Origin: Pseudomonadales bacterium
GTDB taxonomy: Bacteria > Pseudomonadota > Gammaproteobacteria > Pseudomonadales > Pseudohongiellaceae
Reading direction: 5' to 3'
Assembly: GCA_022822865.1 (NCBI GenBank)
Contig: JAJDYJ010000084.1
Location: 1 to 64,000 of the forward strand
DNA length: 64,000 nt
The notes under the pieces were generated by a model. The model was not told where the DNA came from. It saw only the letters and a list, made by a program, of their open reading frames with translations, and made no database searches. Position numbers and translations under genes: made by a program. Position 1 is the first letter of the stretch. The number at the start of each line of letters is the position of its first letter. Of the stretch, positions 27,804 to 41,500 are shown piece after piece.

Positions 27804-28943
27804 ATGCGTACTTCCGCCCGTCCGTTCGTCCTGCCGCTGCAAGTCCTGTGTGTAGCCGCCGTGGTTTGCGCCGCGCCGGCGCTGGCCCAGCAGGGCAATG
27901 CCCGGGGACCCATCGGCGAAAGCCCGTATGACATCGTCAGCGGCTGGCACAAGCCGTTCCAGGAAAAGGGCTTCGCTTTCGGGGGCAACTCGGGTGTGTG
28001 GGCGGAATCGCCGGATCGCATCATCATCGCCCAGCGCGGCGAAACCATTCTGCCTTATCCGGTCCCGGAGGATTTCCCCGGCTTTGCCGGCTCACTCGGT
28101 ATCAATGTGCTGTTCGAAACCAATCGCCGCCACTGGCAGAACTGCCTCTATATCGTCAACGGCGACGGTGAGGTGGTCGAAATCTGGGACCACCTCGATT
28201 ATCTCTGCGAAGGTTCGGACGGTCCCGGCCCGCATCGCATTCGCATCAGCCCTTACGACCCGGAAAGCCGCATCTGGCTGATCAACGAAACTTTCCACCA
28301 GATCTACGTGATCGCCAACGACGGCAGCGAAGTGCTAGCCACTTATGGCGAAAAGGGCGTTTCCGGCGCCGGTGAAACGCATTTCGGCCGGCCCCAGGAC
28401 GTCGCCTTCCTGCCCGACGGCCGCATCCTGGTCGCCGACGGCCTGGACAATCACCGGGTGATCATCTACGACAACGACATGAACTATCTCGGCGAGTTCG
28501 GCGGTTTCGGCACGGGGCCGGGCCAGTTCAATACCTTGCATGCGGTGGCGGTCGGGCCGGACGGCCTGATCTTCGCGCTCGACCGGTCGGGGGGCCGCGT
28601 GAACGTGTTTCAGACGACCGACGATCCGGCCGAAGTCGAGTTTCTGCGCGAGTTTCCGGGCTTGACCCTGCCGCTCGACATCATCGTCAACGAGGACGAC
28701 ATCTGGATCACGGACCTGGGGCCGCTACGCTTCATCAACTTCGATTTCGAAGGCAACTACAAGTACACCTGGCTGGTGCCGCCGGACCTGCCCGACGGCT
28801 ATCTCGAAGTGCACACCTTCACGGTGGATTCGGACGGCAATCTGATCGGCGGCGACAACCAGTACGGCCGCTCGCAAAAGTTCGTCCCCAAGCCCGACGC
28901 CGATCCCGAGTTGCTGATCGAACCCCCTTGGGTAGCGCCGTAG
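27804..28943 (+). CDS. Secreted NHL-repeat beta-propeller protein
   Basis: The signal peptide ends at ALA before QQGNARGPIG. The mature protein carries NHL-type repeats of a six-bladed propeller: GRPQDVAFLPDGRILVADGLDNHRVIIYD, FNTLHAVAVGPDGLIFALDRSGGRVNVFQ and LDIIVNEDDIWITD. The fold is shared with peptidyl-hydroxyglycine lyases and other exported binding proteins, but no catalytic set can be named. AAGAGGAAA before the ATG supports the start. It is the last plus-strand gene of the quinoprotein and peptidase cluster and converges on another NHL protein across a repeat element. Confidence 0.82.
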   Translation: MRTSARPFVLPLQVLCVAAVVCAAPALAQQGNARGPIGESPYDIVSGWHKPFQEKGFAFGGNSGVWAESPDRIIIAQRGETILPYPVPEDFPGFAGSLGINVLFETNRRHWQNCLYIVNGDGEVVEIWDHLDYLCEGSDGPGPHRIRISPYDPESRIWLINETFHQIYVIANDGSEVLATYGEKGVSGAGETHFGRPQDVAFLPDGRILVADGLDNHRVIIYDNDMNYLGEFGGFGTGPGQFNTLHAVAVGPDGLIFALDRSGGRVNVFQTTDDPAEVEFLREFPGLTLPLDIIVNEDDIWITDLGPLRFINFDFEGNYKYTWLVPPDLPDGYLEVHTFTVDSDGNLIGGDNQYGRSQKFVPKPDADPELLIEPPWVAP

Positions 28944-29148: not shown

Positions 29149-30192
29149 CTAAGGCCTCACGCGAATGTACTTCTGCAGGTTGCGGGGGATGGGTTCTCCG
29201 CCGTACATGTTGCCGGCGGCGTCCACCGCGACGAATTCGGCGCCGTTGCCGAGGATGACGTGGGGGTCGCCGGGCGCGTAGAGCACGAATTCATCGACCC
29301 AGCCGAGTTCGGCGTCGCCGATGCGGATGCCCATTTCCCAGCCCGGGTTCTGTTCGATATCGGATTCCGAATCGGCCACGTAAATGCGGTCGTGATCGTC
29401 GAAGAAGATGCCGCTCGGACGCCCGAATTGTGTCCATTGGCTGATGAAATTGCCGTCCTGATCGAATATCTGAATGCGATTGTTGGAACGGTCGCCGACG
29501 AAAATCCGGCCGCGCTGGTCCATGGCTATGGTATGCAATACGCGAAACTCTCCCGGCGCGTAACCGGTCTTGCCCCAGGCCTTGATGAAGTTGCCGTCGC
29601 GGTCGAATTTCACGACCCGGTTGTTGCCGGGTGTGTTATGGCCGTCGGCGATGAAGATATCGCCGTTGTCGGCGACCACCACGTCAGCCGGCGAGGTGAA
29701 CTGGTTCTCGCCGCTGCCTTCCACGCCCGGCGTGCCCAAAACCATCAGCACTTCGCCCGTGGGGCTGAATTTCACCACCTGGTGGCCGCGCATGTCGCCG
29801 TCGGGGATTCTCGCCTGCGCCACCGCGTCGGTAACGTAGATATTGCCTTCCCGGTCGACGTCGATGCCGTGGGGCCAGATGAACATGCCGCCGCCGAAAC
29901 TCGTGACGACATTGCCTTGGGCGTCAAATTTGAGCACCGAGTCGAGATCGGAATCGAGGCACTCGTCGCCGAAGCGTTCGCGCTCCGTGGCGTCACAGCG
30001 GACCACGGCCCAGAGATGCTCTCTGTCCGGGTCCACATCCAGGTCGCCGACGGCGCCCCAGGTGCGGCCGTCGGGCAATGTGCCCCATTCCACGTTGCGC
30101 CAGGGATTGGGGTAAGGCTGCGCCAGCAGGGCCGTAACGAATCCGAACAGCAGAAGTATGATTCCAGCACGGAAAATCGACAGTTTTTTCAT
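29149..30192 (-). CDS. Secreted NHL-repeat beta-propeller protein
   Basis: The true start is MKKLSIFRAG at 30192, with GGAGG 9 bases upstream; the longer track ORF is read-through. After the signal peptide (ends ALLAQ) come NHL blades: FIWPHGIDVDREGNIYVTDA, FTSPADVVVADNGDIFIADG, FRVLHTIAMDQRGRIFVGDRSNNRIQIFD and GRPSGIFFDDHDRIYVADSES. It differs from the converging NHL protein in sequence but has the same plan and export route. Known relatives include periplasmic binding or lyase-like propellers; no enzymatic residue set is evident. Confidence 0.82.
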   Translation of the reverse strand: MKKLSIFRAGIILLLFGFVTALLAQPYPNPWRNVEWGTLPDGRTWGAVGDLDVDPDREHLWAVVRCDATERERFGDECLDSDLDSVLKFDAQGNVVTSFGGGMFIWPHGIDVDREGNIYVTDAVAQARIPDGDMRGHQVVKFSPTGEVLMVLGTPGVEGSGENQFTSPADVVVADNGDIFIADGHNTPGNNRVVKFDRDGNFIKAWGKTGYAPGEFRVLHTIAMDQRGRIFVGDRSNNRIQIFDQDGNFISQWTQFGRPSGIFFDDHDRIYVADSESDIEQNPGWEMGIRIGDAELGWVDEFVLYAPGDPHVILGNGAEFVAVDAAGNMYGGEPIPRNLQKYIRVRP

Positions 30193-30257: not shown

Positions 30258-31700
30258 TCAGGCCGCGAGCCAGATCAGGACCCCCGTGGCCAGCACGATC
30301 AATTGGCTGAAGCGGTCCTCGACGGCGAACAACACGGGGTCCTCGTGGAGCCGGCCGGCCCGGGCCAGCCGCCAGATGCGGCCGAGCAGCACGATCAGCA
30401 AGGGGCAGATGAGCCAGAGTATGAGCGGTGAACCATAGAGCCGCGTCGTCGCCGGCGCGTTGATGTAGAACGCGAACACGACCACGGCCATGACGCTTGC
30501 CAGACCGCCGATTACCGACAGCAACGGTTCGTGTGACGGGCGATAGGCCCGGCCGCTGACGGCTTCGGTCGCCTGGGTTTGCAGGTTGACCAGTTCGGTC
30601 ACCCGCTTGACCAGGGCCAGGCCGAGGAAAAAGCATAGCGAAAAGGCGATCAGGAAGTTGGTCGTCACGACTTCGATGGCCTCGGCCCCCGCGGCGACAC
30701 GCAACGCGTAGAGCGTCGCCAGCGTTGCCACATCGACGAGGAATATCCGTTTCAGCGCAAAGCTGTAGAGGCAGGTCAACAGCCAGTAGATCAGCAGCAC
30801 GAGGCGAAAATCCGCCGGCAACAGCGACGAGACCAGGAAAGCCCCGAGCAGGAGAGCCGGCGCGGCGATGAATCCAGCGGCAAGCGGCAATTCGCCGGCC
30901 GCGAAAGGGCGTCTCCGCTTGGTCCGGTGCGCCCGGTCGCTGTCGAGGTCGAGCATGTCGTTGAGCAGATAGACGCTCGATGTACACAGGCAGAAGGCGA
31001 TGAAGCCGATGGCGGAGGCGAACAGCAAGTCCGGTTGCGTTAATTGGTGAGACAGGGTCAGCGGGACGAACAGTAGTGTGTTCTTGAGCCATTGATGGGG
31101 CCGCACAGCCCGCAACAGCGGCCGGAAGACAGCGCCGGCGGAACCGAAGTTCAATACATCGCTTTCACGGCTTGAAAATCGGCGGCTGACGGCGGGGGCG
31201 CAGTTCACCATGACGATCTGCTTCGCCCCGGACCAGATGGGAAGATCGGCGCGGGAATCGCCGGCATAGGCAAAATCGCCGCCGCCCATCTCTTCGATGC
31301 GGCGCAGCTTGCGGCGGGATTTCAGATTGGTTTCGGCATCGCTGCCCACGGCGGCTTCGAACAGCCCGAGATGCTCGCTTACCGCGTCCACATACGACTG
31401 GTTCGAGGCCGAGATCAGCGTCATCGCCCGCCCCCCGTCCCTTTGTCGCCGGAGCCAGGCCAGGAATTCCTCGTTATACGGCAGCCCGGCCGGGTCGATC
31501 TTCACCCGGCGCGCAATTTGATGTTTCAGCCAGGCGCGGCCCCGCAGCAGCCAGAAAGGAATGACGGCGAGGTAAAGCGGATTGCGCCGGATCAGCCGCA
31601 ACAGCGATTCGAAAAGCAGATCCGTGCGGATCAGGGTCCCGTCCAGGTCCACGAACAGATGCGCGTTCGAATCGGTTGAATTGCCGGGATTGTCTGCCAT
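30258..31700 (-). CDS. HAD-phosphatase/UbiA prenyltransferase fusion (decaprenyl-phosphoribose synthase-like)
   Basis: Two domains in 480 residues. The first 200 form a HAD domain: LFVDLDGTLIRTDLL with the nucleophile Asp, SASNQSYVD and AGDSRADLPIW. Then comes an integral UbiA domain of about nine helices with the prenyl-pyrophosphate motif LNDMLDLDSDRAHRTKRRRP and the RPHQWLKNTLLF start typical of 5-phosphoribose-diphosphate:decaprenyl-phosphate transferases. Such enzymes attach phosphoribose to polyprenyl phosphate; the HAD half could remove the 5-phosphate. ATG is 5 bp after the preceding GT-C gene. It is the last gene of a four-gene membrane glycosylation operon. Confidence 0.87.
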   Translation of the reverse strand: MADNPGNSTDSNAHLFVDLDGTLIRTDLLFESLLRLIRRNPLYLAVIPFWLLRGRAWLKHQIARRVKIDPAGLPYNEEFLAWLRRQRDGGRAMTLISASNQSYVDAVSEHLGLFEAAVGSDAETNLKSRRKLRRIEEMGGGDFAYAGDSRADLPIWSGAKQIVMVNCAPAVSRRFSSRESDVLNFGSAGAVFRPLLRAVRPHQWLKNTLLFVPLTLSHQLTQPDLLFASAIGFIAFCLCTSSVYLLNDMLDLDSDRAHRTKRRRPFAAGELPLAAGFIAAPALLLGAFLVSSLLPADFRLVLLIYWLLTCLYSFALKRIFLVDVATLATLYALRVAAGAEAIEVVTTNFLIAFSLCFFLGLALVKRVTELVNLQTQATEAVSGRAYRPSHEPLLSVIGGLASVMAVVVFAFYINAPATTRLYGSPLILWLICPLLIVLLGRIWRLARAGRLHEDPVLFAVEDRFSQLIVLATGVLIWLAA

Positions 31701-31705
31701 CGAAT

Positions 31706-33172
31706 TTACTCGCTGCCGCTCGGCAGATAGCGATACAACTTGTAGTCCGGAAACCGGAATCCGGCTACTTCGGCCAGGTCTTCGGGCCGGTTCGTCTGCA
31801 GCGACGTGACCGCGCGTTCGAAAAATCGCGGCGGCTCGCGCGCAAGTATATAGTCCGGCGGATGCAGTTCCAGCCAACTGTGGTAGTCGCCTTCGGCGAC
31901 GAACTCCGCGTTGCCGCTGGTCACCAGGCCCAGGATGTCGATGATCCTGCGCCCGGAATACCAGCCGACGGTGCCGATCTCCGCCAGCGCGATCGATGCG
32001 TCGGCGGGCGTATTCTCCGCGATCCACAGGCCGAACTGCCGGTAATCCTCGCGCACGGTGTTGCCATGCAGGACGAGGTTGATCGCTCCCTGCCAGACCA
32101 GCATCAGGACGAAGAAGCCTATGCATGCGTTGCGGAAAAACCCCTGGCGCCCGGTCTTCAGTTGGCGGTGAAGCCAAAAGATTCCCAGTACGACCCAGGT
32201 GGAGAAGATCGTGAAATGAATCGCGTAATACCACCATTGACCCGGAATGTTCAGGCCCGCGAAAAATCCCGTATACAGGCCCAGGAAAGTCACTGAAACA
32301 AGCAGGTATTGCCGCGCCTGAACCAGCAGAAGCGAAAATGCGGCCAGGATCAGCAACAGGACCGGGACCGCAAGGCTGCCGAAAATCTGCATTTGCCGGG
32401 GCAGGCCGAAGCCGTTCAGCAGGCGTTCTCCCAGCCCGATCAGAAAGCTGTTGTACCCCCAATGACCCATCGCTCCCTGGGAGATCTTGGCGACGCCGGA
32501 AGAGGGCAGCAGGGCGCCGTAGTAAAGGCCGTTGAACGCGAATTGGGCCAGGACCAGAATCGCCGGTGCGACGTAGCAGCGAATATCAGGCCATGGGCGC
32601 TTGTACGCCCAGGTGTTCAAGGCCATGGCCGGAACGAGAAAGACGGCTTCGGGCCGCGTGAGGATCGCGAGCCCGACGCAAATGCCGAGCGGGAAGAACT
32701 CGTCCTTGAAATACAGGTAGAAGCACAGTCCGACCATGAAGGTGAACAGGCTCGTTTCCATGCCGAGATTGATGTAGGTCATGCCGGAACCTGCCGCGAA
32801 CAAGGTTGCCAGCGCGGCAATTCGCCGGTCGGCGATGAACAGGATCAGAATGCGATAGAAGATCACTACCGTGCCCATGGCCGCCAGCACGGAAATCAGC
32901 ATGGCGCCGTGGCGCGCGTCGCCGAACAGCCATGCCGGCGCCAGCGACAGCCAGGCAAACAGCGGCGAAGTCAATCCGTTGACGTATTCACCGGTGTTGT
33001 AAACCAGTCCGTTTCCCGAAATCAGGTTCTGGATGTATCTCGCGTAGATCAGGCCGTCGTCGAGTTCATGTCCGCGAAAAACGATCCCTTTAACGCCGAC
33101 AATCAGAACGGAAAGCCCGACCATCCAGTTGGCCGCGTCGCGCAAGTCGAAGGCTTCCGAGAATTTTCTCAC
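31706..33172 (-). CDS. GT-C type membrane glycosyltransferase, arabinosyltransferase-like
   Basis: The 488-residue protein has about ten to eleven helices and a first external loop with the acidic motif HELDDGLIYARYIQNLISG and YNTGEYVNGLTSPLF. This loop resembles that of AftB-type arabinofuranosyltransferases and other GT-C enzymes that use polyprenyl-phosphate sugars; the C-terminal soluble part (IALAEIGTVGWYSGRRIIDILGL) is also typical. The start is GTG at 33172, overlapping the preceding stop (GTGA). Together with the HAD-UbiA fusion downstream it suggests transfer of a ribose- or arabinose-like sugar on the periplasmic side. Confidence 0.78.
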   Translation of the reverse strand: MRKFSEAFDLRDAANWMVGLSVLIVGVKGIVFRGHELDDGLIYARYIQNLISGNGLVYNTGEYVNGLTSPLFAWLSLAPAWLFGDARHGAMLISVLAAMGTVVIFYRILILFIADRRIAALATLFAAGSGMTYINLGMETSLFTFMVGLCFYLYFKDEFFPLGICVGLAILTRPEAVFLVPAMALNTWAYKRPWPDIRCYVAPAILVLAQFAFNGLYYGALLPSSGVAKISQGAMGHWGYNSFLIGLGERLLNGFGLPRQMQIFGSLAVPVLLLILAAFSLLLVQARQYLLVSVTFLGLYTGFFAGLNIPGQWWYYAIHFTIFSTWVVLGIFWLHRQLKTGRQGFFRNACIGFFVLMLVWQGAINLVLHGNTVREDYRQFGLWIAENTPADASIALAEIGTVGWYSGRRIIDILGLVTSGNAEFVAEGDYHSWLELHPPDYILAREPPRFFERAVTSLQTNRPEDLAEVAGFRFPDYKLYRYLPSGSE

Positions 33173-34440
33173 TCCAGCCCGCCTTCCCGATCGATACGCA
33201 GCGCCGCGTTCGGATAATCACCGATGGAAATGTCGCGCCGGAAATCGTCAAGCGGCTTTTCCGGATAATGCACGACCAGTGTGCCCTCGACAGACTCGGC
33301 AAGCCGGTAGATTTCGGCATAGGTCTGCTGGAATTCGAAATGCTGGCGCCAGGTCACGCCGATGCCCCAGACACTGAACAGCGCGATCAGCAGAATCGCC
33401 GGCCGCGGCGCCCGGGCGAACAGGATGAAAAGCGTCATCGCGAACGGGATGAGATAGAGCCGGCCGACGAAATTGTGGTGGCTCATGACGTTGTCGCCCT
33501 GGTAGCCGAACATGCCCCAGTAGACCGGCCCGCACAGGCCGAGAATCGCCAGTATCGTGAACTTGGGCCCGAAACTCCGGGTCAGGACCACCAGCGTGAT
33601 CATGGCCGCTATGCCGGCCCAGAACATCGCGCCGCCATGGGCGAAACTGCTCGACTGCGCTGGAAATCCGGCGATGAAGCTGGCGTAGGACGCGGCGTAG
33701 ACGTCGATGTCGAAACCGTGAATGTCGGCTTCCGAGCCGATGGGAACGAAAGAATGCCGCAGCCACCAGTAGACTGCCGAAACGCCCAGCATGGAAACGG
33801 CCAGCCAGATGCGCGCATTCGCGCCCCATACGTCCTTCTCTCGCAGATCTTCCCACAGCAGCCAGCCGAACAGCGGAAAGGCCAGCACACAGGATTCCTT
33901 GCAGAACACGGCAAGGGCGAAACTGACGCCGCAAGCGGCAAGACGACCTGAAACGTACAGGCGGATCGCCAGCGCCAGGAAGAACAGGCAGGCGGCGTCG
34001 AAGATATTGGCGAACCAGGTCGCCGTGATCAGGCTGGAAGCGGAAAACAGCAGGACCGCGAAAAACGCGATGGCGCGGCCGCATTCCAGGTCGTATCGCA
34101 ACACCAGCGCCCGCGCCAGCAGGCTGACCGAACAAAGCATGAGCAAGGCGTTGAAATAGCGCAGGAAGAGGAAGCTGCCGCCGGACAGTTTGCCGAGTCC
34201 CAGGGCCAGGCTGCTGCCGAGCGGGCGATAAATATCGAGCGGCAATTGCTGCAGCCACACGGCCAGCATCGCTTCGAAGACGCTCATGCTCGCCAGCGGT
34301 TCCGAAGCAAACAGCAACAGGGCGTTGGTCTCGTCCCATACGTCGGTGACCATCAGCCCGCTGATCATGATCAGCCAGGCCGCGCCGATCACGGCCAGCA
34401 CCACTATGAAACCGCAGTTTGCTGTCCAGTTCGCGCTCAT
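33169..34440 (-). CDS. Polytopic membrane protein, probable GT-C glycosyltransferase
   Basis: The true start is MSANWTANCGFIVV at 34440, whose ATG overlaps the stop of the preceding gene (ATGA). The 423 residues form about nine to ten helices; the first external loop contains TDVWDETNALLLF, an acidic pair in the position used by GT-C transferases, and the protein ends with a short soluble tail. I recognise no specific family. Tight overlap with both neighbours indicates that it works in the same polyprenyl-linked sugar pathway, possibly as one of several transferases assembling a surface glycan. Confidence 0.65.
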   Translation of the reverse strand: MSANWTANCGFIVVLAVIGAAWLIMISGLMVTDVWDETNALLLFASEPLASMSVFEAMLAVWLQQLPLDIYRPLGSSLALGLGKLSGGSFLFLRYFNALLMLCSVSLLARALVLRYDLECGRAIAFFAVLLFSASSLITATWFANIFDAACLFFLALAIRLYVSGRLAACGVSFALAVFCKESCVLAFPLFGWLLWEDLREKDVWGANARIWLAVSMLGVSAVYWWLRHSFVPIGSEADIHGFDIDVYAASYASFIAGFPAQSSSFAHGGAMFWAGIAAMITLVVLTRSFGPKFTILAILGLCGPVYWGMFGYQGDNVMSHHNFVGRLYLIPFAMTLFILFARAPRPAILLIALFSVWGIGVTWRQHFEFQQTYAEIYRLAESVEGTLVVHYPEKPLDDFRRDISIGDYPNAALRIDREGGLE

Positions 34441-35633
34441 CGTCGGTGGTCGCCGGTCGCCCCGCTCGCGGAAATCAGGCTGACGGCGTACAAGGTGATG
34501 ACTGCGTAATATGGCGTGAGAAAGCGGTCGATTCCGGCGATCAGCGGGAACAGGGCGAGGAAGGCGCCGAATACCGGCAGGGAAAGCAGGCTGACATCGG
34601 CCAGGGATACAGGTCTCGACGGCCTGAATACTCCGGCCAGGTTGCCGCGCCAGGTTCCGGCCCAGGCGATCAGCCAGAGCAACAGGAATAGCGGCAACAC
34701 GGTTGCGATCATCGCGCCGCTGGCGAAAAGCTGGATGGCGGCGCCGCGCAGCACATCGAGATAAAGCGTGACGGAGAAAGGTTCGGCAAATGCCTCGATA
34801 TCGATCTGTGATTCGATCAGCGTGTGATAGAACAGCCGCCACCAGTCGTAGTCGAAGACGGCGCTGATCCAGAAATACGACAAAACGCTGACGGTCAGCC
34901 CGCCGCTGTACCAATAGAATTCGCGGGATTGCAAAGGCTCACCCCGGCGCAGATGGTTCCAGCAAAGCAGCAGGATCAATGGCGCGACAAAGATGATGTT
35001 GTTGGTGCGAATCCAGATCGAAAGACCGAGACACACCACCGCGGCGGCGGTCCAGCGCCGCGCCAGCAGGCACCAGACTCCCGCCAGCACCGCCAGGGCG
35101 GAAAGATTGTCCGGCGTGGGAATTCGGCTCAGGTCGAACAACCGCGCACCGACGGAGAACAGGATAACCGCCAATACCGCCTGCATGGGGCCGGTCAGAT
35201 CCCGCAGCCAGAGAAACAGGATCACGCAGATCAACAGGCCCGGAACGAGCGACAGCCAGATGACGCCATCGGCCGGATTCGCTCCCGCTGCGGCCAGGCC
35301 GCGCAAGAGCAGCACATACAGCGGCTTGATTTCATACATGCTAAGCTGGCCGGCGAAATTTTCCGGGCTCGCGTACATCGCGGCCGCGTACTCGCCGCCG
35401 ACCAGGGAGTTGAATTGCGCCGCGTCAAGCGACTGCCGCAGCAGTTCGTAAGTCGCTTCGTGCATGGCCGCGGGATCGCCGGATTCCGCCGTGAAAGTCG
35501 TCGCCACATAGGGAACCACGTCCCAGGTGTAGATAGGATTGCTCAGGGCGAACCATGACAGCGCGAGCAGGTGCAAGGCCAGCAGAATCATGGCCGCCCG
35601 CGTGCTGATTGCTTCCGATCCGATTGCGCGCAT
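34437..35633 (-). CDS. Polytopic membrane protein, probable glycosyltransferase (first gene of operon)
   Basis: The track ORF runs into antisense of the next gene; the start used is MRAIGSEAISTRAAMILLALHLL at 35633. The 398 residues form about eight to nine helices with an external loop after helix 1 (NPIYTWDVVPYVATTFTAES) that carries an acidic residue in GT-C fashion, and SRIPTPDNLSALAVLAG in the core. It overlaps the next gene by ATGA. The divergent methyltransferase-like gene starts only 30 bp away, so the two directions probably share a compact promoter. Specific donor and acceptor are unknown. Confidence 0.65.
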   Translation of the reverse strand: MRAIGSEAISTRAAMILLALHLLALSWFALSNPIYTWDVVPYVATTFTAESGDPAAMHEATYELLRQSLDAAQFNSLVGGEYAAAMYASPENFAGQLSMYEIKPLYVLLLRGLAAAGANPADGVIWLSLVPGLLICVILFLWLRDLTGPMQAVLAVILFSVGARLFDLSRIPTPDNLSALAVLAGVWCLLARRWTAAAVVCLGLSIWIRTNNIIFVAPLILLLCWNHLRRGEPLQSREFYWYSGGLTVSVLSYFWISAVFDYDWWRLFYHTLIESQIDIEAFAEPFSVTLYLDVLRGAAIQLFASGAMIATVLPLFLLLWLIAWAGTWRGNLAGVFRPSRPVSLADVSLLSLPVFGAFLALFPLIAGIDRFLTPYYAVITLYAVSLISASGATGDHRR

Positions 35634-35663: not shown

Positions 35664-38090
35664 ATGAGCGAAAACATAGCACAACCGGCCAACAGGGCAT
35701 TTCTGCTCGGGCTCTTTTTCATCACCGGCGCGACGCTCATGCTGGAGGTGCTCAACACCCGGCTGTTGTCGGTGGTGACCTGGTACCACCTGTCTTTTTT
35801 CGCCGTGTCCATGGCCATGTTCGGCATGGCGGCCGGGGCGCTTCGGGTTTATCTGCATTCGCGGCGCTTTACGACCGCCAACGCCCTCGACAACCTGTTC
35901 CGCTACTCGATCTATTTCGCCGCAAGCACCATCGTCTGCCACCTGGCGATTATCTACACGCCGCTCGACATCAGCGGGGGCTGGACCGCGGCCGGCGTGG
36001 CGAAGATGGCGCTGATCACCGTGGCGGTGGCGATTCCCTTCTTTTTCAGCGGAGTCGTCGTCACCGTCGCCCTGACCCAGGTGAAAGGCAACAGTGGGCT
36101 GATCTACGCCGTCGATCTCATCGGCGCGGCCATAGGCAGCATAGCCTGCCTGCCCTTGCTCAACGCGCTGGACATCACCAGCGCGACATTCGTCACCGCC
36201 GCCATCGCTTTGTTCGGCGTCTGCCTGTTCCAGCTCGCCCGCAACCAAAACATGGGACACCCACTGCTGTGGATCGGCTTTGCGGCGCTGGTAGTGATCG
36301 GCGCCGTCGTCAACCATTCCAGCGTGCAGGGATTCCGCGTGTTCTATCCCAAGGGCAATCCGATCAGTTACGAGCAGGACACGCTCGAGTTCTGGACCAT
36401 ACACGGCCAGGTGCTCGTCTTTCCCTATGTCGAAGCCGGGCCGTTCTTCTGGGGTCCGGGCGAAGGCGCGCCGGTGATCGAAGGCCTGCAAGGCCAGGCC
36501 ATGGTGATCGACGGCGAGGCGGGCACCGCGCTCACGCAATGGGACGGCGACCGGAGCAATCTCGACTGGCCGCGTTTCGACGTGACCTCGCTGCCTTATC
36601 ATCTTCGGCCCGGCGGCAGCGCCGCCGTGATCGGAGTCGGCGGCGGCAGGGACATCCTCACGGCGCTTTGGGCCGGCAGTTCGCGAATTACCGGGATCGA
36701 GATCAACGAGGCCGCACTGCGGGTATTGCGCGAGGACCGGCGCGATTTCGTGCGGCTCTACGAACAGGAAGAAATCGAGTTCGTTCACGACGAGGCGCGT
36801 TCCTGGCTGACCCGTGCGGAACAACGCTTTGACCTGATCCAGATGTCACTGATCGACACCTGGGCGGCCACGGGCGCCGGCGCCTTCACCTTGTCCGAAA
36901 ACGGTCTCTATACAGTCGAAGGCTGGCAGGTCTTTCTCGATCATCTCGAACCTAACGGATTGTTCAGCGTCTCGCGCTGGTATTCCCCGGATGCGCTGTC
37001 GGAAACCAACCGGCTGATTTCGCTGGCGGCGATGTCGCTGCTTCGCCGCGGCATCGTGCGGCCCGCGGACCATATCGCCCTCGTTTCGCGCCTGTCGGTG
37101 GCGACCTTGCTCGTTTCGCCCGAGCCCCTGCGGGCGGAGGACATCGATACCATCGAGCGGGTGGCGGAGGAATACGGCTTCACTATCCTGCATTCGCCGC
37201 GGCAACAGTCTTCCGAACCGCTGATCCGCAATGTGCTCGCAGTCGCCGATGAGCAGCAATTGCTTGCCGCCACCGAACACGAGTATCTGGATTTCACGCC
37301 GCCGACCGACAGCCGGCCCTATTTCTTCAATATCCTGAAGCCAGCCGCGCTGTTCCAATCCGGTGAGGCCGGCGGGGAACTCGAAGACCTGGGAATCGTC
37401 GCAGGGGGCAATCTGCTTGCGACTTATACGCTGATGTTGCTATGTGGGCTGGCGCTGGCGGGGGTGTTGCTCGTCATCGCCACGCCGCTTCTCATCGCCG
37501 GCCGGCCGAAGATACCCAATCGCGTTTTCCTCAGCGGCCTGGCGTATTTCGCCTGTATCGGCACCGGCTTCATGATGGTGCAGATCCCGCTCATGCAACG
37601 CTTTTCGGTCTACCTGGGACATCCGGTCTACGCCGTGGCAGTGCTGCTGTTCTCCATGATTCTCGCGGCCGGCGCCGGCAGTTTCCTTTCCGACCGCATC
37701 GAAGTCCGCCGCGGTTCGCGCTGGACCTTGCTGATCCCGGCCGGCATCGTTTCCCTGCTCGTATTGATCTACGCAATCGCCGGACCATTGATCACCGCGA
37801 CGATTTCCCAGGGCTTGTTCGTCCGCTGCCTGATCGTGATCGTCCTGGTCAGCCTGCCGGCCCTGCCCATGGGCATGTGCTTCCCTCTCGGCCTGCGACT
37901 CTTCCGCGAGTATTCCAGCCAGTGCCTGCCCTGGATGTGGGGCATGAACGGCGCCACCGGCGTCCTCGCCAGCGTCTCCGCCGTCGCCATCTCGATGTGG
38001 AGCGGCATCAACACCAGCCTGCTCGTCGCCATCGCCTGTTACGTGCTACTGGCGCTACCCGCGAGTTTCCTGCAAGCCAAGCTGGATTGA
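35664..38090 (+). CDS. Membrane-embedded spermidine synthase-like methyltransferase protein
   Basis: The 808-residue protein has an N-terminal block of about six helices (FLLGLFFITGATLMLEVLNTRLL, SFFAVSMAMFGMAAGALRVYL), a central Rossmann methyltransferase or aminopropyltransferase-like domain with the SAM loop AAVIGVGGGRDILTALW, the acidic ITGIEINEAAL and RFDLIQMSLIDTWAATGAGAF, and a second block of about six helices. Fused membrane spermidine-synthase-like proteins form a large family of unknown substrate. The start MSENIAQPA is the ATG at 35664. Its last codons (LALPASFLQAKLD) overlap the left copy of the island repeat, so its C-terminus may have been replaced on island insertion. Confidence 0.82.
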   Translation: MSENIAQPANRAFLLGLFFITGATLMLEVLNTRLLSVVTWYHLSFFAVSMAMFGMAAGALRVYLHSRRFTTANALDNLFRYSIYFAASTIVCHLAIIYTPLDISGGWTAAGVAKMALITVAVAIPFFFSGVVVTVALTQVKGNSGLIYAVDLIGAAIGSIACLPLLNALDITSATFVTAAIALFGVCLFQLARNQNMGHPLLWIGFAALVVIGAVVNHSSVQGFRVFYPKGNPISYEQDTLEFWTIHGQVLVFPYVEAGPFFWGPGEGAPVIEGLQGQAMVIDGEAGTALTQWDGDRSNLDWPRFDVTSLPYHLRPGGSAAVIGVGGGRDILTALWAGSSRITGIEINEAALRVLREDRRDFVRLYEQEEIEFVHDEARSWLTRAEQRFDLIQMSLIDTWAATGAGAFTLSENGLYTVEGWQVFLDHLEPNGLFSVSRWYSPDALSETNRLISLAAMSLLRRGIVRPADHIALVSRLSVATLLVSPEPLRAEDIDTIERVAEEYGFTILHSPRQQSSEPLIRNVLAVADEQQLLAATEHEYLDFTPPTDSRPYFFNILKPAALFQSGEAGGELEDLGIVAGGNLLATYTLMLLCGLALAGVLLVIATPLLIAGRPKIPNRVFLSGLAYFACIGTGFMMVQIPLMQRFSVYLGHPVYAVAVLLFSMILAAGAGSFLSDRIEVRRGSRWTLLIPAGIVSLLVLIYAIAGPLITATISQGLFVRCLIVIVLVSLPALPMGMCFPLGLRLFREYSSQCLPWMWGMNGATGVLASVSAVAISMWSGINTSLLVAIACYVLLALPASFLQAKLD
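38049..38074. repeat. Left copy of island-flanking direct repeat (attachment-site-like)
   Basis: CTGGCGCTACCCGCGAGT followed by TTCCTGCA lies inside the last codons of the methyltransferase gene. The same 26 bases, with one change, recur at 42406-42431, enclosing the 4.3-kb toxin-antitoxin island. Confidence 0.7.
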
Positions 38091-38356: not shown

Positions 38357-38980
38357 ATGGGCAAGGGCAAGAAAATTACCGTCAAAGATACATCCATTCG
38401 CATCGTGGCAGTTGAGGATGAAGACTACATTTCGCTTACGGATATGCTGCGGGCCAAAGACGGAGATTTTTTTATCTCAGACTGGCTGCGAAATCGCAAT
38501 ACGGTGGAGTTTCTCGGAATTTGGGAGAGCGTTAACAACCCTGCTTTCAATTATGGCGAATTCGCCACAATTAGAAGTCAGGCTGGTCTCAACAGCTACA
38601 AGATCAGCGTCAAGGAGTGGGTGGCGAAGACCAATGCTGTCGGCCTGATCGCCAAAGCGGGGCGTTACGGTGGCACATTTGCGCACAGAGACTTGGCCTT
38701 CGAATTTGGTATGTGGATCAGCCCGGAATTCAAAATATATCTAATCAAGGAGTTTCAGCGCCTCAAGGAGGCTGAGCGGGATCAACTGGGCTGGGACATC
38801 CGCCGTAATCTGGCGCGAATCGGGGAATTTTCAATCGGCTTTTCTTGGGAGTATTACTGCGGTACTGGCTATGCCGGACTTTTCCGGTTGCTCAGTGCGC
38901 GAAAAATATCGGCAATCCAGGCGGGAGCGTATCGAATATCCTTCATCAGTTGCTTGCGCGCCGCATCGTCAAGCCGGTGA
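38357..38980 (+). CDS. KilA-N domain protein, 3' end apparently truncated
   Basis: The domain is clear: ISLTDMLRAKDGDFFISDWLRNRNTVEFLGIWE, NPAFNYGEFATIRSQAGLNSYKISVKEW, NAVGLIAKAGRYGGTFAHRDLAFEFGMWISPEFKIYLIKEFQRLKEAE. KilA-N proteins are phage- and defence-associated DNA-binding proteins, usually near 270 residues with a conserved C-terminal part that begins soon after the RRNLARI helix. Here the sequence changes character after RRNLARI and the frame then runs 112 bp antisense into the end of the DUF6088 gene, so the natural 3' end is missing. The start at 38357 replaces the longer track ORF. Probably non-functional or altered. Confidence 0.7.
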   Translation: MGKGKKITVKDTSIRIVAVEDEDYISLTDMLRAKDGDFFISDWLRNRNTVEFLGIWESVNNPAFNYGEFATIRSQAGLNSYKISVKEWVAKTNAVGLIAKAGRYGGTFAHRDLAFEFGMWISPEFKIYLIKEFQRLKEAERDQLGWDIRRNLARIGEFSIGFSWEYYCGTGYAGLFRLLSARKISAIQAGAYRISFISCLRAASSSR

Positions 38981-39492
38981 TCCAGTCGCCGGATGATTTC
39001 CGAATCGACATTCTTCCTCCCGAGGTGCCGCAGGGCCTGAATGACCAGTCCGCTGATCTTTCCCGCGGTAATCATGTTGCGGGGAGTTGTGCGCTTCAGG
39101 AGAATCTGGCGCTTGCCAACTTGGACGGTTCGCGTACGGCCATCCGTCAGATAAACCATCTTCATGGGGACTTGGGTAGAGAGGCCGAGAATATTGGCGG
39201 CGTAGGCCCCGGAGGGCTGCAAGCGGGCTGCGTCGCGACCGGCCAGGGCATGCGCAATGTCGTCCGTCGATGGCTCCAGGGAGCCCAATTTGGGGTCGAT
39301 TTTCGGGTAGTCGTAGAGACCGCGGGCGAGCTGGCGTATTTGACCGCTTTCCCGATGCCGCATAAGGGCGAGATCGATCGCCCGGCGGGAGCCCAGATCA
39401 GCGAAACTGTCGGGCGTAAAGACCCAGCCCCGCTTGCGATACTTGATCCGCCGAAGAATCCTGCTGTTTGTGCTGTCGCTGTGCTTACCCAT
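38869..39492 (-). CDS. DUF6088 / AbiEi-family antitoxin-like protein, without partner toxin
   Basis: The 207-residue protein opens with a winged-helix-like segment (ILRRIKYRKRGWVFTPDSFADLGSRRAIDLAL) and RGLYDYPKIDPKLGSLEP, typical of AbiEi-like type IV antitoxins, followed by the body with GAYAANILGLSTQVPMKMVYLTDG. In the usual system it represses its own promoter and neutralises an AbiEii nucleotidyltransferase encoded directly downstream. Here the downstream side is occupied by the antisense KilA-N remnant and no nucleotidyltransferase ORF exists, so the toxin has been lost. A strong inverted repeat overlaps its promoter region. Confidence 0.82.
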   Translation of the reverse strand: MGKHSDSTNSRILRRIKYRKRGWVFTPDSFADLGSRRAIDLALMRHRESGQIRQLARGLYDYPKIDPKLGSLEPSTDDIAHALAGRDAARLQPSGAYAANILGLSTQVPMKMVYLTDGRTRTVQVGKRQILLKRTTPRNMITAGKISGLVIQALRHLGRKNVDSEIIRRLDHRLDDAARKQLMKDIRYAPAWIADIFRALSNRKSPA

Positions 39493-39495
39493 ATC

Positions 39496-39531
39496 TTTTG
39501 AAAGAAGTATATACTCTTTTTTCTTTCAAAA
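39496..39531 (-). promoter_or_regulatory. Candidate autoregulatory operator of the DUF6088 gene
   Basis: TTTTGAAAGAA (39496-39506) and TTCTTTCAAAA (39521-39531) are perfect 11-bp inverted arms around a 14-bp spacer that contains GTATATAC. The element lies directly before the ATG at 39492. AbiEi proteins are known to bind inverted repeats in their own promoters, which makes this a likely binding site. Confidence 0.6.
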
Positions 39532-39682
39532 ATACAGCGGTGTGTAGCAAGCGAAATTCCGGCACGATCTCCTGCCGACCAAGCTGAATGGATGAACGGG
39601 GCGCATTCTATTGAAGCGACGCGCGGCTCGAAACAGCCGCTACTCTGAAGCGGAACACAGGGCGATTTTGCGTCAGGCGCTC

Positions 39683-39904
39683 TTAGCCAACGGCAACCTC
39701 GACGCGGGTGACGTAGACTTCGCTGTGCAGACGTCTCTCGACTTCCTTAGCGGGAGCGCATTCGAAAAACAGGGCCAGGGCTTCGGTGAGATTTTCGCGC
39801 GCCAAGGTCACGGAGTCGCCCTGGCTGGCGATGTCCAGCTCTGGGCATAACGCAACGTATCCTTCTCCTTCGCGCTCGATAATTGTGGTCAATTGTCTAT
39901 TCAT
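39683..39904 (-). CDS. HicB-like antitoxin, coupled to hipA
   Basis: A 73-residue protein with the partial RNase-H-like fold of HicB: LTTIIEREGEGYVALCPELDIASQGDSVTLARENLTEALALFF. HicB normally blocks the HicA RNA-cleaving toxin encoded beside it. No HicA-like ORF occurs on either side: the DNA downstream to the DUF6088 gene encodes nothing similar. Its ATG overlaps the hipA stop (ATGA at 39901-39904), so it is translated with hipA as the third gene of the unit. It may be a leftover of a split system or have a role in the hipBA operon. Confidence 0.8.
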   Translation of the reverse strand: MNRQLTTIIEREGEGYVALCPELDIASQGDSVTLARENLTEALALFFECAPAKEVERRLHSEVYVTRVEVAVG

Positions 39905-41190
39905 CTTGCATCTTCACCTGTCAACGTCGACCTTTGCACCTGTCTCGACCAGAGTTTATTCGATTCCTGGTAAATTGGCACCGTCTCAAGATACTGTTCA
40001 ATTGTTGAAACCACATCTGCATAAAGAGGAAGATTGTTCTTCTCCTCGTTCCAGTGCTGGTGAAACAGTTCGACCGTCTCCCTGGCGGTATCCAGCACAA
40101 GCGCTTTGGCGAGCTTGGCCCTGTTGGCGAAATGGGCTAGCTCGTCCTCGTCGAAGCCATCGAAGCGCCTGGTGCGGCTGAAGGTCAGCGCGGACTCGCT
40201 ATCGGGAATATAGGGAATCGTCGATACAAAATCGTAGGTGGGGGCCAGACGCGCGGTGCGTTTATCCGGGTAGAGCACCGACCAGTTCTTGATGTGCATG
40301 TCGGCATTGCCGATCAGCGTGTTGAATACCAATCGCCGGACAAACTCCCTGATATCGGCGTCATCGCTTTCGGTCGCGATGACATTCGCGATATTGACCA
40401 TGCTCGCCTTCTTGTATTTGTCCTTTGGATAGACGCCGAAAATCTGCGCGAAGTCTTCAGCGTGGACGCGCCTGCCGTCGCGCGAGCGATCAAAGCGTTC
40501 GATCGCCAGCGCCTTGCCGTCCGTCGTGGCCACATCCGTGGGCAAGCCACCAATGTCTTTCACATTGACCAGATCCAGCGCCGGTACATTCATACCCAGT
40601 TTGCGCGCGAGCGTCATCATCGAGAATTCGTTTTCCGGAACGCCTTCGTACCTTATGGACGGAAGCTTGACGATCCACGATCCTCCAATGCCTCTGGCGG
40701 GAATAGTCAGCCCGTCACCGGTGCTTTCGAGCGCGGAAAACTTTAGTTGCACACCGGCGAGGGAGAAGCGCAGCGCCTTTTCGTCGCGTTCGCGCACGGC
40801 ATCTTCATCTGGAGACTCCTCGGCGTCAGGCGGCCATTCCTCACCGTCGGCGGCCCGGACGGTAATCGCTCCGGGCAGGTCGTTCCCCAACGCCCAAAGC
40901 AGGAAGAATTCGCGTTCGGGATTCACCCCGGCCCGCCCGGCGAGATATGCCCGCAAACGGTCTTCGGGCAAGAGGTTGGAAAAGAAGGGCATAACGCGAG
41001 TCTGATAGGGCCTGAAATCGGTGAGAAGCTCCCCATGCCGGTTCTTGAACCCCAGGCCCAGGACGGGCCGGTTCCTGTCGGCAATATAGCCGTCGTTGAA
41101 TGCGAACAAGGTACGGTCCCCCTCGATTCGCGTCAGCGTCCCGATGGGTTCGCCATAAAGCAGAACTTCCAATACGGAAACACTAGCCAT
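39901..41190 (-). CDS. hipA: HipA-family Ser/Thr kinase toxin
   Basis: A 429-residue kinase toxin that in E. coli phosphorylates glutamyl-tRNA synthetase and causes growth arrest and persistence. Visible parts: N-terminal HipA_N domain (LYGEPIGTLTRIEG, FFSNLLPEDRLRAYL), nucleotide-binding loop SLAGVQLKFSAL, WIVKLPS, catalytic loop LIGNADMHIKNWSVLY, and metal-binding APTYDFVSTIPY. All catalytic residues appear present, so it is probably active. The second of two adjacent ATGs has the better ribosome-site spacing (GGAAG). It overlaps hipB upstream and the HicB gene downstream. Confidence 0.92.
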   Translation of the reverse strand: MASVSVLEVLLYGEPIGTLTRIEGDRTLFAFNDGYIADRNRPVLGLGFKNRHGELLTDFRPYQTRVMPFFSNLLPEDRLRAYLAGRAGVNPEREFFLLWALGNDLPGAITVRAADGEEWPPDAEESPDEDAVRERDEKALRFSLAGVQLKFSALESTGDGLTIPARGIGGSWIVKLPSIRYEGVPENEFSMMTLARKLGMNVPALDLVNVKDIGGLPTDVATTDGKALAIERFDRSRDGRRVHAEDFAQIFGVYPKDKYKKASMVNIANVIATESDDADIREFVRRLVFNTLIGNADMHIKNWSVLYPDKRTARLAPTYDFVSTIPYIPDSESALTFSRTRRFDGFDEDELAHFANRAKLAKALVLDTARETVELFHQHWNEEKNNLPLYADVVSTIEQYLETVPIYQESNKLWSRQVQRSTLTGEDAR

Positions 41191-41500
41191 CATCGTCTTC
41201 CAGACTGTATGCGGGCCGGTTCGCCTGCCAATGTTCCTCCGGATCGGAGAAGCCGCCCCGGGCGCTATTTACGATCGAACGCACTGCCGGAAGAGCCTTG
41301 CGCGGCACGAGGGTGAGTTCCAGGTCGAGCGCGCGCGCTATTTCGGTCAGACTCGATACGCGTAAATCCACCCCTGCGTTCTCGATCCTGGATATATGGC
41401 TCTGCGGCATCCCCGCCGTTCTGGCAAGCGCAAGCTGACTCAGTCCCTTTGCTCGCCGGACAGCCTTGATCGTTCTCGAAATCTCGTCTATTGCTCCCAT
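41183..41500 (-). CDS. hipB: HipB-family antitoxin and autorepressor
   Basis: The start MGAIDEISRTIKAVRR follows GAGGGTGGT; the longer track ORF begins in the operator region. The 105-residue protein has a Cro/C1-type helix-turn-helix (LSQLALARTAGMPQSHISRIENAGVDLRVSSLTEIARAL) that would bind its own promoter, and an extended C-terminal tail (from PRKALPAVRS to EDDDG) that could contact HipA. Its stop overlaps the hipA start by a few bases, so the pair is translationally coupled. AT-rich palindromes upstream are its likely binding sites. Confidence 0.9.
   Translation of the reverse strand: MGAIDEISRTIKAVRRAKGLSQLALARTAGMPQSHISRIENAGVDLRVSSLTEIARALDLELTLVPRKALPAVRSIVNSARGGFSDPEEHWQANRPAYSLEDDDG

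Follow-up and report, generated by a model that had tools for sequence, protein, structure and literature searches.

A HAD-UbiA fusion gene beside three GT-C-type genes in an uncultured Pseudomonadales genus: a probable lipid-linked pentofuranose system

The stretch of DNA analysed here (the window) comprises 64,000 nucleotides of contig JAJDYJ010000084.1, from a Pseudomonadales bacterium of the Pseudohongiellaceae (GCA_022822865.1). Four consecutive genes on its minus strand, running from 35633 to 30258, encode three membrane proteins of the GT-C type, designated GT-C A, B and C, and a protein in which a HAD domain is fused to a UbiA domain. An earlier reading made from the letters alone (the sequence-only reading), whose coordinates for the cluster are exact, had proposed a polyprenyl-phosphate-pentose glycosylation system. 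The features of the cluster are as follows.

34437-35633, minus strand: GT-C A, PMT_2-type membrane glycosyltransferase, 398 amino acids (aa), ATG start; PF13231 match, D38 invariant
33169-34440, minus strand: GT-C B, orphan membrane protein, probable GT-C on its fold only, 423 aa, ATG start
31706-33172, minus strand: GT-C C, AftB-like membrane glycosyltransferase, 488 aa, GTG start; AftB profile match and GT-C fold
33056-33061, minus strand: DD motif of GT-C C, D38-D39, with D39 aligned to the catalytic D62 of AftB (PMC12041299)
30258-31700, minus strand: HAD-UbiA fusion, candidate bifunctional polyprenyl-phosphoribose synthase and 5-phosphatase, 480 aa, ATG start; matches to NF006088 and to decaprenyl-phosphoribose (DPPR) synthase 8j8j
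31236-31655, minus strand: HAD domain, residues 16-155 (PF12710, 38.1 bits)
31635-31649, minus strand: HAD motif I, DLDGT, with nucleophile D18, equivalent to D18 of ORF15 from Citrobacter youngae (conservation, PMC11127046)
30285-31124, minus strand: UbiA/phosphoribosyltransferase domain, residues 193-472 (PF01040, 65 bits; aligned with 8j8j over 193-472)
30936-30962, minus strand: Mg/phosphoribosyl pyrophosphate (PRPP) motif N247-D248-xx-D251-xxx-D255

The junctions between GT-C A and B and between GT-C B and C are 4-base overlaps (ATGA and GTGA, respectively). The HAD-UbiA gene starts 5 bases past the stop codon of GT-C C (TAA ATTCG ATG) and is close-coupled without overlapping, so the proposal that all four genes are translationally coupled is slightly overstated. 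The ratio of nonsynonymous to synonymous substitution (dN/dS) against a near relative is approximately 0.3-0.4, a rough figure due to the few changes present, and argues for working genes.

The HAD and UbiA matches of the fusion both lie above the Pfam cut-off, and the protein matches NCBIfam model NF006088 over its full length (579 bits, cut-off 351, residues 8-480). It features the N-terminal HAD domain with the DxDGT nucleophile (D18, D20) and the C-terminal UbiA domain that mark the ORF15 type. ORF15 of C. youngae, which has the same domain order, produces polyprenyl-phosphate-ribose from PRPP and then removes the 5-phosphate (Kelly et al. 2024, PMC11127046), and the N and D residues of its Mg/PRPP motif are required (PMC11127046). 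The HAD residues D18, D20, T22, K131, G147 and D152 are invariant in 14 relatives, as are the phosphoribosyltransferase-site residues N247, D248, D251, D255, R366 and E369. In a comparison by residue number with the residues named in that study, all those of ORF15 (D18, N247, D248, D251, D255, R366, E369) are found at identical positions. A 5-phosphatase role predicted for the HAD half, as the sequence-only reading had suggested, fits this conservation and the precedent of one protein carrying out both reactions. The same reading was right to place the two steps in one protein, though the arrangement is not new: it was shown in 2024 (PMC11127046), and a scan of GTDB representatives identified the fusion pattern in at least 570 relatives from several phyla. 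A search of phages gave one partial match (28%), and a search of plasmids gave 103 records with matches, the commonest genus being Rhizobium.

The UbiA half scores 110-150 bits (best 149.5) with DPPR-synthase models, whereas the models of heme O synthase and 4-hydroxybenzoate polyprenyltransferase (UbiA) give 22 and 19, respectively. The only significant protein data bank (PDB) matches of the fusion are the DPPR synthase entries 8j8j (E 4.6e-23) and 8j8k. The curated cut-offs of the decaprenyl-phosphate phosphoribosyltransferase models (PRK12324) are not reached (149.5 bits against 207 for NF008978, 127 against 234 and 111 against 474), and by its scores the fusion is a relative of these enzymes that is filed under NF006088 instead. 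A tree of UbiA domains was built with the Mycobacterium tuberculosis DPPR synthase and the genome's own UbiA, leaving out the other UbiA-family gene; two long branches met in it and the root was not placed, so the DPPR-type assignment rests on the profile scores. Judged by these, the UbiA half belongs with the decaprenyl-phosphoribose synthases and not with the quinone or heme enzymes, a grouping that the sequence-only reading had named as fatal to its proposal and that was not found on the profiles. The Pfam UbiA family is broad and could accommodate a quinone or other isoprenoid prenyltransferase fused to an unrelated phosphatase, but the profile scores, the restriction of PDB matches to DPPR synthase, the two other UbiA-family proteins encoded by separate genes in the genome and the linkage of the fusion with dprE1 and dprE2 in relatives leave this already disfavoured reading with hardly any probability.

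Epimerase genes of the DprE1/DprE2 type had not been seen within the window, and it had been suggested that the sugar may stay as ribofuranose. The genome search that the sequence-only reading called for changes this, as both genes are present on another contig (C103:9977-12039), where an FAD oxidase resembling DprE1 (445 aa) overlaps a short-chain dehydrogenase/reductase resembling DprE2 (242 aa). The DprE1-like protein matches PDB DprE1 with an E of 1.5e-80, other oxidase families following only from approximately 1e-14, and retains the lysine aligned with mycobacterial Lys418. The DprE2-like protein is above the cut-off of NF005489, with NF053786 second best. Neither protein has a better characterised match than the DprE1 and DprE2 models.

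Gene order in relatives connects these genes with the fusion. Within the genus, and likewise in genus g7, most examined genomes have the arrangement dprE1-dprE2-HAD-UbiA, often (14 loci) preceded by a GtrA gene; in genus g6 (two loci) the fusion comes first. Of 56 named fusion loci that exceed 12 kb, 46 have dprE1 nearby and 38 have both epimerase genes. When both full and edge-cut genes are counted, 73 of 84 genomes in the genus have the fusion together with DprE1, six have neither and five have one alone (Fisher P 5e-6, only a guide, as the genomes are related and relatedness was not corrected). From the presence of dprE1/dprE2 in the genome and the usual position of the fusion directly behind them in relatives, the donor is probably polyprenyl-phosphate-arabinofuranose. 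An inositol-monophosphatase gene adjoins dprE1/dprE2 on C103 and also flanks the cassette in relatives, and this gene order suggests that C103 is the original site of the fusion, which has since disappeared from it.

The lineage of the window consists of eight genomes (G000, the genome of the window, with G081, G095, G096, G097, G098, G134 and G135) that form one clade in the HAD-UbiA and DprE1 trees alike, and in all of them the fusion lies apart from dprE1/dprE2. GT-C A, B and C stand beside the fusion in G000, G095 and G135; G134 has all three plus extra DNA and a GT-C B remnant, and G081 has A and B without C. In G096 and G098, GT-C C is beside the fusion at another locus, and remnants are found in G097 and on contig C45 of G095. 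Specific to this lineage are the separation of the fusion from dprE1/dprE2 and its joining to the GT-C genes, the gain and loss of GT-C genes among the relatives, the lack of GtrA in the genome and the conserved divergent neighbour of GT-C A described below. In G095 (loci L074/L127 on contig C28, L210 on C81) the cluster is 98% identical to that of the window, whereas the DprE1 of this genome has only 69% identity and falls with those of G096-G098. The remnants on C45 of G095 are of GT-C C and the fusion, and its contig C28 carries additional DNA without a match in G000. Transfer between species and a misbinned contig both fit these observations.

GT-C A exhibits 38.8 bits to PMT_2 (PF13231), above the cut-off of 26.1, and its D38 is invariant in 15 relatives. 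GT-C C falls on either side of the same cut-off, with 23.8 bits in the protein scan and 26.8 in the genome search, and a further PMT_2 match, the third in the genome, is found on contig C82. A PDB search with the GT-C C profile identified AftB alone (9dlf, E 4e-13), and the AftB-like first loop pointed out in the sequence-only reading is real, although the match to the AftB model NF041481 covers the N-terminal part only (36 bits against 1050) and full-length membership is lacking. In AftB, D62 is catalytic and T91 and R221 are donor-phosphate residues (PMC12041299). These correspond to D39, T68 and R173 of GT-C C, all invariant in 12 relatives, AftB R372 being outside the aligned part. The predicted model of GT-C C (predicted local distance difference test, pLDDT, 79; predicted template modelling score, pTM, 0.83) has ALG12, AftB, ArnT and other GT-C enzymes among its best matches. 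No Pfam or NCBIfam family is matched by GT-C B; in a search with its AlphaFold model (pLDDT 69), ArnT ranks at the top (probability 1.00, with an E of just 0.03) and nearly all further matches are GT-C folds, which makes it a probable GT-C with moderate-confidence fold. PDB searches with the GT-C A and GT-C B profiles provided no matches, arabinosyltransferases included. Tandem paralogues of GT-C A are present in several genomes (four loci), suggesting local expansion.

GT-C proteins are the expected users of such a lipid donor, which agrees with the role proposed for the three; GT-C A and B are putative users of the pentose. The three could instead use another polyprenyl-phosphate sugar (a hexose), their link to the fusion being no more than a common operon, as the missing arabinosyltransferase matches of GT-C A and B and the GT-C A relatives found apart from the fusion would allow. 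This is improbable in view of the overlapping genes, the AftB donor-site residues kept in GT-C C and the finding of GT-C C immediately ahead of the fusion or close to it, at two separate places, in several genomes (four loci).

A second question is whether the donor for these GT-C proteins stays undecaprenyl-phosphate-ribofuranose, as in C. youngae O1, with DprE1/DprE2 serving another pool or transferase. The fusion has moved away from dprE1/dprE2 in this lineage and now lies with the GT-C genes, and ORF12 of C. youngae is not restricted to a single pentose (PMC11127046). Fusions without a DprE are also found in Erwinia and Yersinia (L173, L174), where they are followed by a small, transporter-like multi-transmembrane protein (EamA/SMR-like in L174) and a protein of 7-9 transmembrane segments; these are possible minimal ribose-type three-part systems. 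A ribose donor is nevertheless unlikely here, since intact DprE1 and DprE2 would act on the same cytoplasmic lipid and GT-C C aligns best with an arabinosyltransferase.

Our preferred interpretation, to which we assign a probability of roughly 0.75, is a lipid-linked pentofuranose system, most likely of arabinofuranose, with several GT-C proteins. The fusion would very probably make lipid-linked ribose from PRPP and polyprenyl phosphate, the HAD half removing the 5-phosphate. DprE1 and DprE2 would then epimerise this to undecaprenyl-phosphate-D-arabinofuranose, a flippase would carry the lipid to the periplasmic face, and GT-C C, probably together with A and B, would attach the pentose to a glycan or protein of the cell surface.

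Several observations weigh against this interpretation. DprE1 reaches 398 bits to NF053785, below the curated cut-off of 500, and DprE2 reaches 204 bits to NF053786, below that of 250. These GT-C genes are missing from most genomes that carry the donor genes, and co-occurrence of the two says little, given that the donor genes are found almost throughout the genus. The genome G099 (96% complete) encodes a 46%-identical GT-C A relative without the fusion or DprE1, which means that GT-C A may work with a different donor. Of the parts of a three-component pentofuranose system, the synthase and GT-C proteins are present, no flippase gene is found at the locus, and the MATE and SMR genes lie elsewhere in the genome, unlinked to it. 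The genome search also found no GtrA in the genome of the window.

GtrA likewise gave no match in ten genomes of the lineage and close to it, nor in several others of the genus. The neighbours of the three MATE genes suggest no link, and NCBIfam places these genes in efflux MATE families. By a hand count over the genus, GtrA and GT-C A are negatively associated (Fisher P 3e-4), but relatedness confounds this figure and no weight was placed on it. The gene divergent from GT-C A starts 30 bases from it:

35664-38090, plus strand: membrane protein of approximately 14 transmembrane segments with a spermidine-synthase-like domain, 808 aa

It adjoins GT-C A homologues in 12 of the 13 relatives with a readable flank, also where the fusion lies elsewhere. 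A similar protein was seen near the fusion in a Desulfobacterales genome. A more far-reaching scheme, which we consider quite improbable, would make the donor synthase and GT-C proteins of this lineage an exchangeable module for surface decoration that moves from species to species and changes as GT-C genes are gained or lost, with dprE1/dprE2 fixed in the chromosome, and would have the 14-transmembrane neighbour replacing the lost GtrA as flippase or modifying the lipid-linked sugar.

Elsewhere in the window, the minus-strand stretch 38869-41193 encodes a HipA-type kinase (39901-41193), a small open reading frame (39683-39904) and a DUF6088/AbiEi-like protein (38869-39492), has a lower G+C content (0.54-0.55) and resembles a toxin-antitoxin or mobile insert. 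Two NHL-repeat proteins (29149-30153, minus strand, and 27804-28943, plus strand) adjoin the cluster downstream and are beside it in relatives as well (four loci).

These findings extend the recently described route to lipid-linked pentofuranose into an uncultured genus of Pseudomonadales with donor genes in nearly every sequenced species, and provide an AftB-like enzyme family outside mycobacteria that is open to study in a harmless host. Concrete points of interest are GT-C B as an orphan family, the flippase that is missing and the protein next to GT-C A.

Pilin glycosylation in Pseudomonas paraeruginosa PA7 (PSPA7_6245-6251, TfpW; PMC12369383) shares with the system proposed here a gammaproteobacterial D-arabinofuranose route ending in a GT-C; the PA7 UbiA protein is without a HAD domain (PMC11127046), and the cluster described here contains no pilin gene. 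With the mycobacterial decaprenyl-phosphate-arabinose pathway (Rv3806c, Rv3807c, DprE1, DprE2, AftB/Emb) it has in common the DPPR-synthase-type UbiA, DprE1, DprE2 and an AftB-like GT-C, whereas the phosphatase is a fused HAD domain in place of Rv3807c, the envelope is Gram-negative and no Emb sequence match was seen. The three-component pentofuranose system of C. youngae O1/O2 consists of ORF15 (PPPRS), ORF14 (MATE) and ORF12 (GT136) (PMC11127046). In contrast to it, the present cluster has three GT-C genes rather than one and no flippase gene, with DprE1/DprE2 elsewhere in the genome; shared are the order of N-terminal HAD and C-terminal UbiA, the catalytic residues and the GT-C genes alongside. 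The cluster is a fresh example of a known system and not a new one, as an enzyme of the same type as its key fusion has been characterised before, in a different bacterium.

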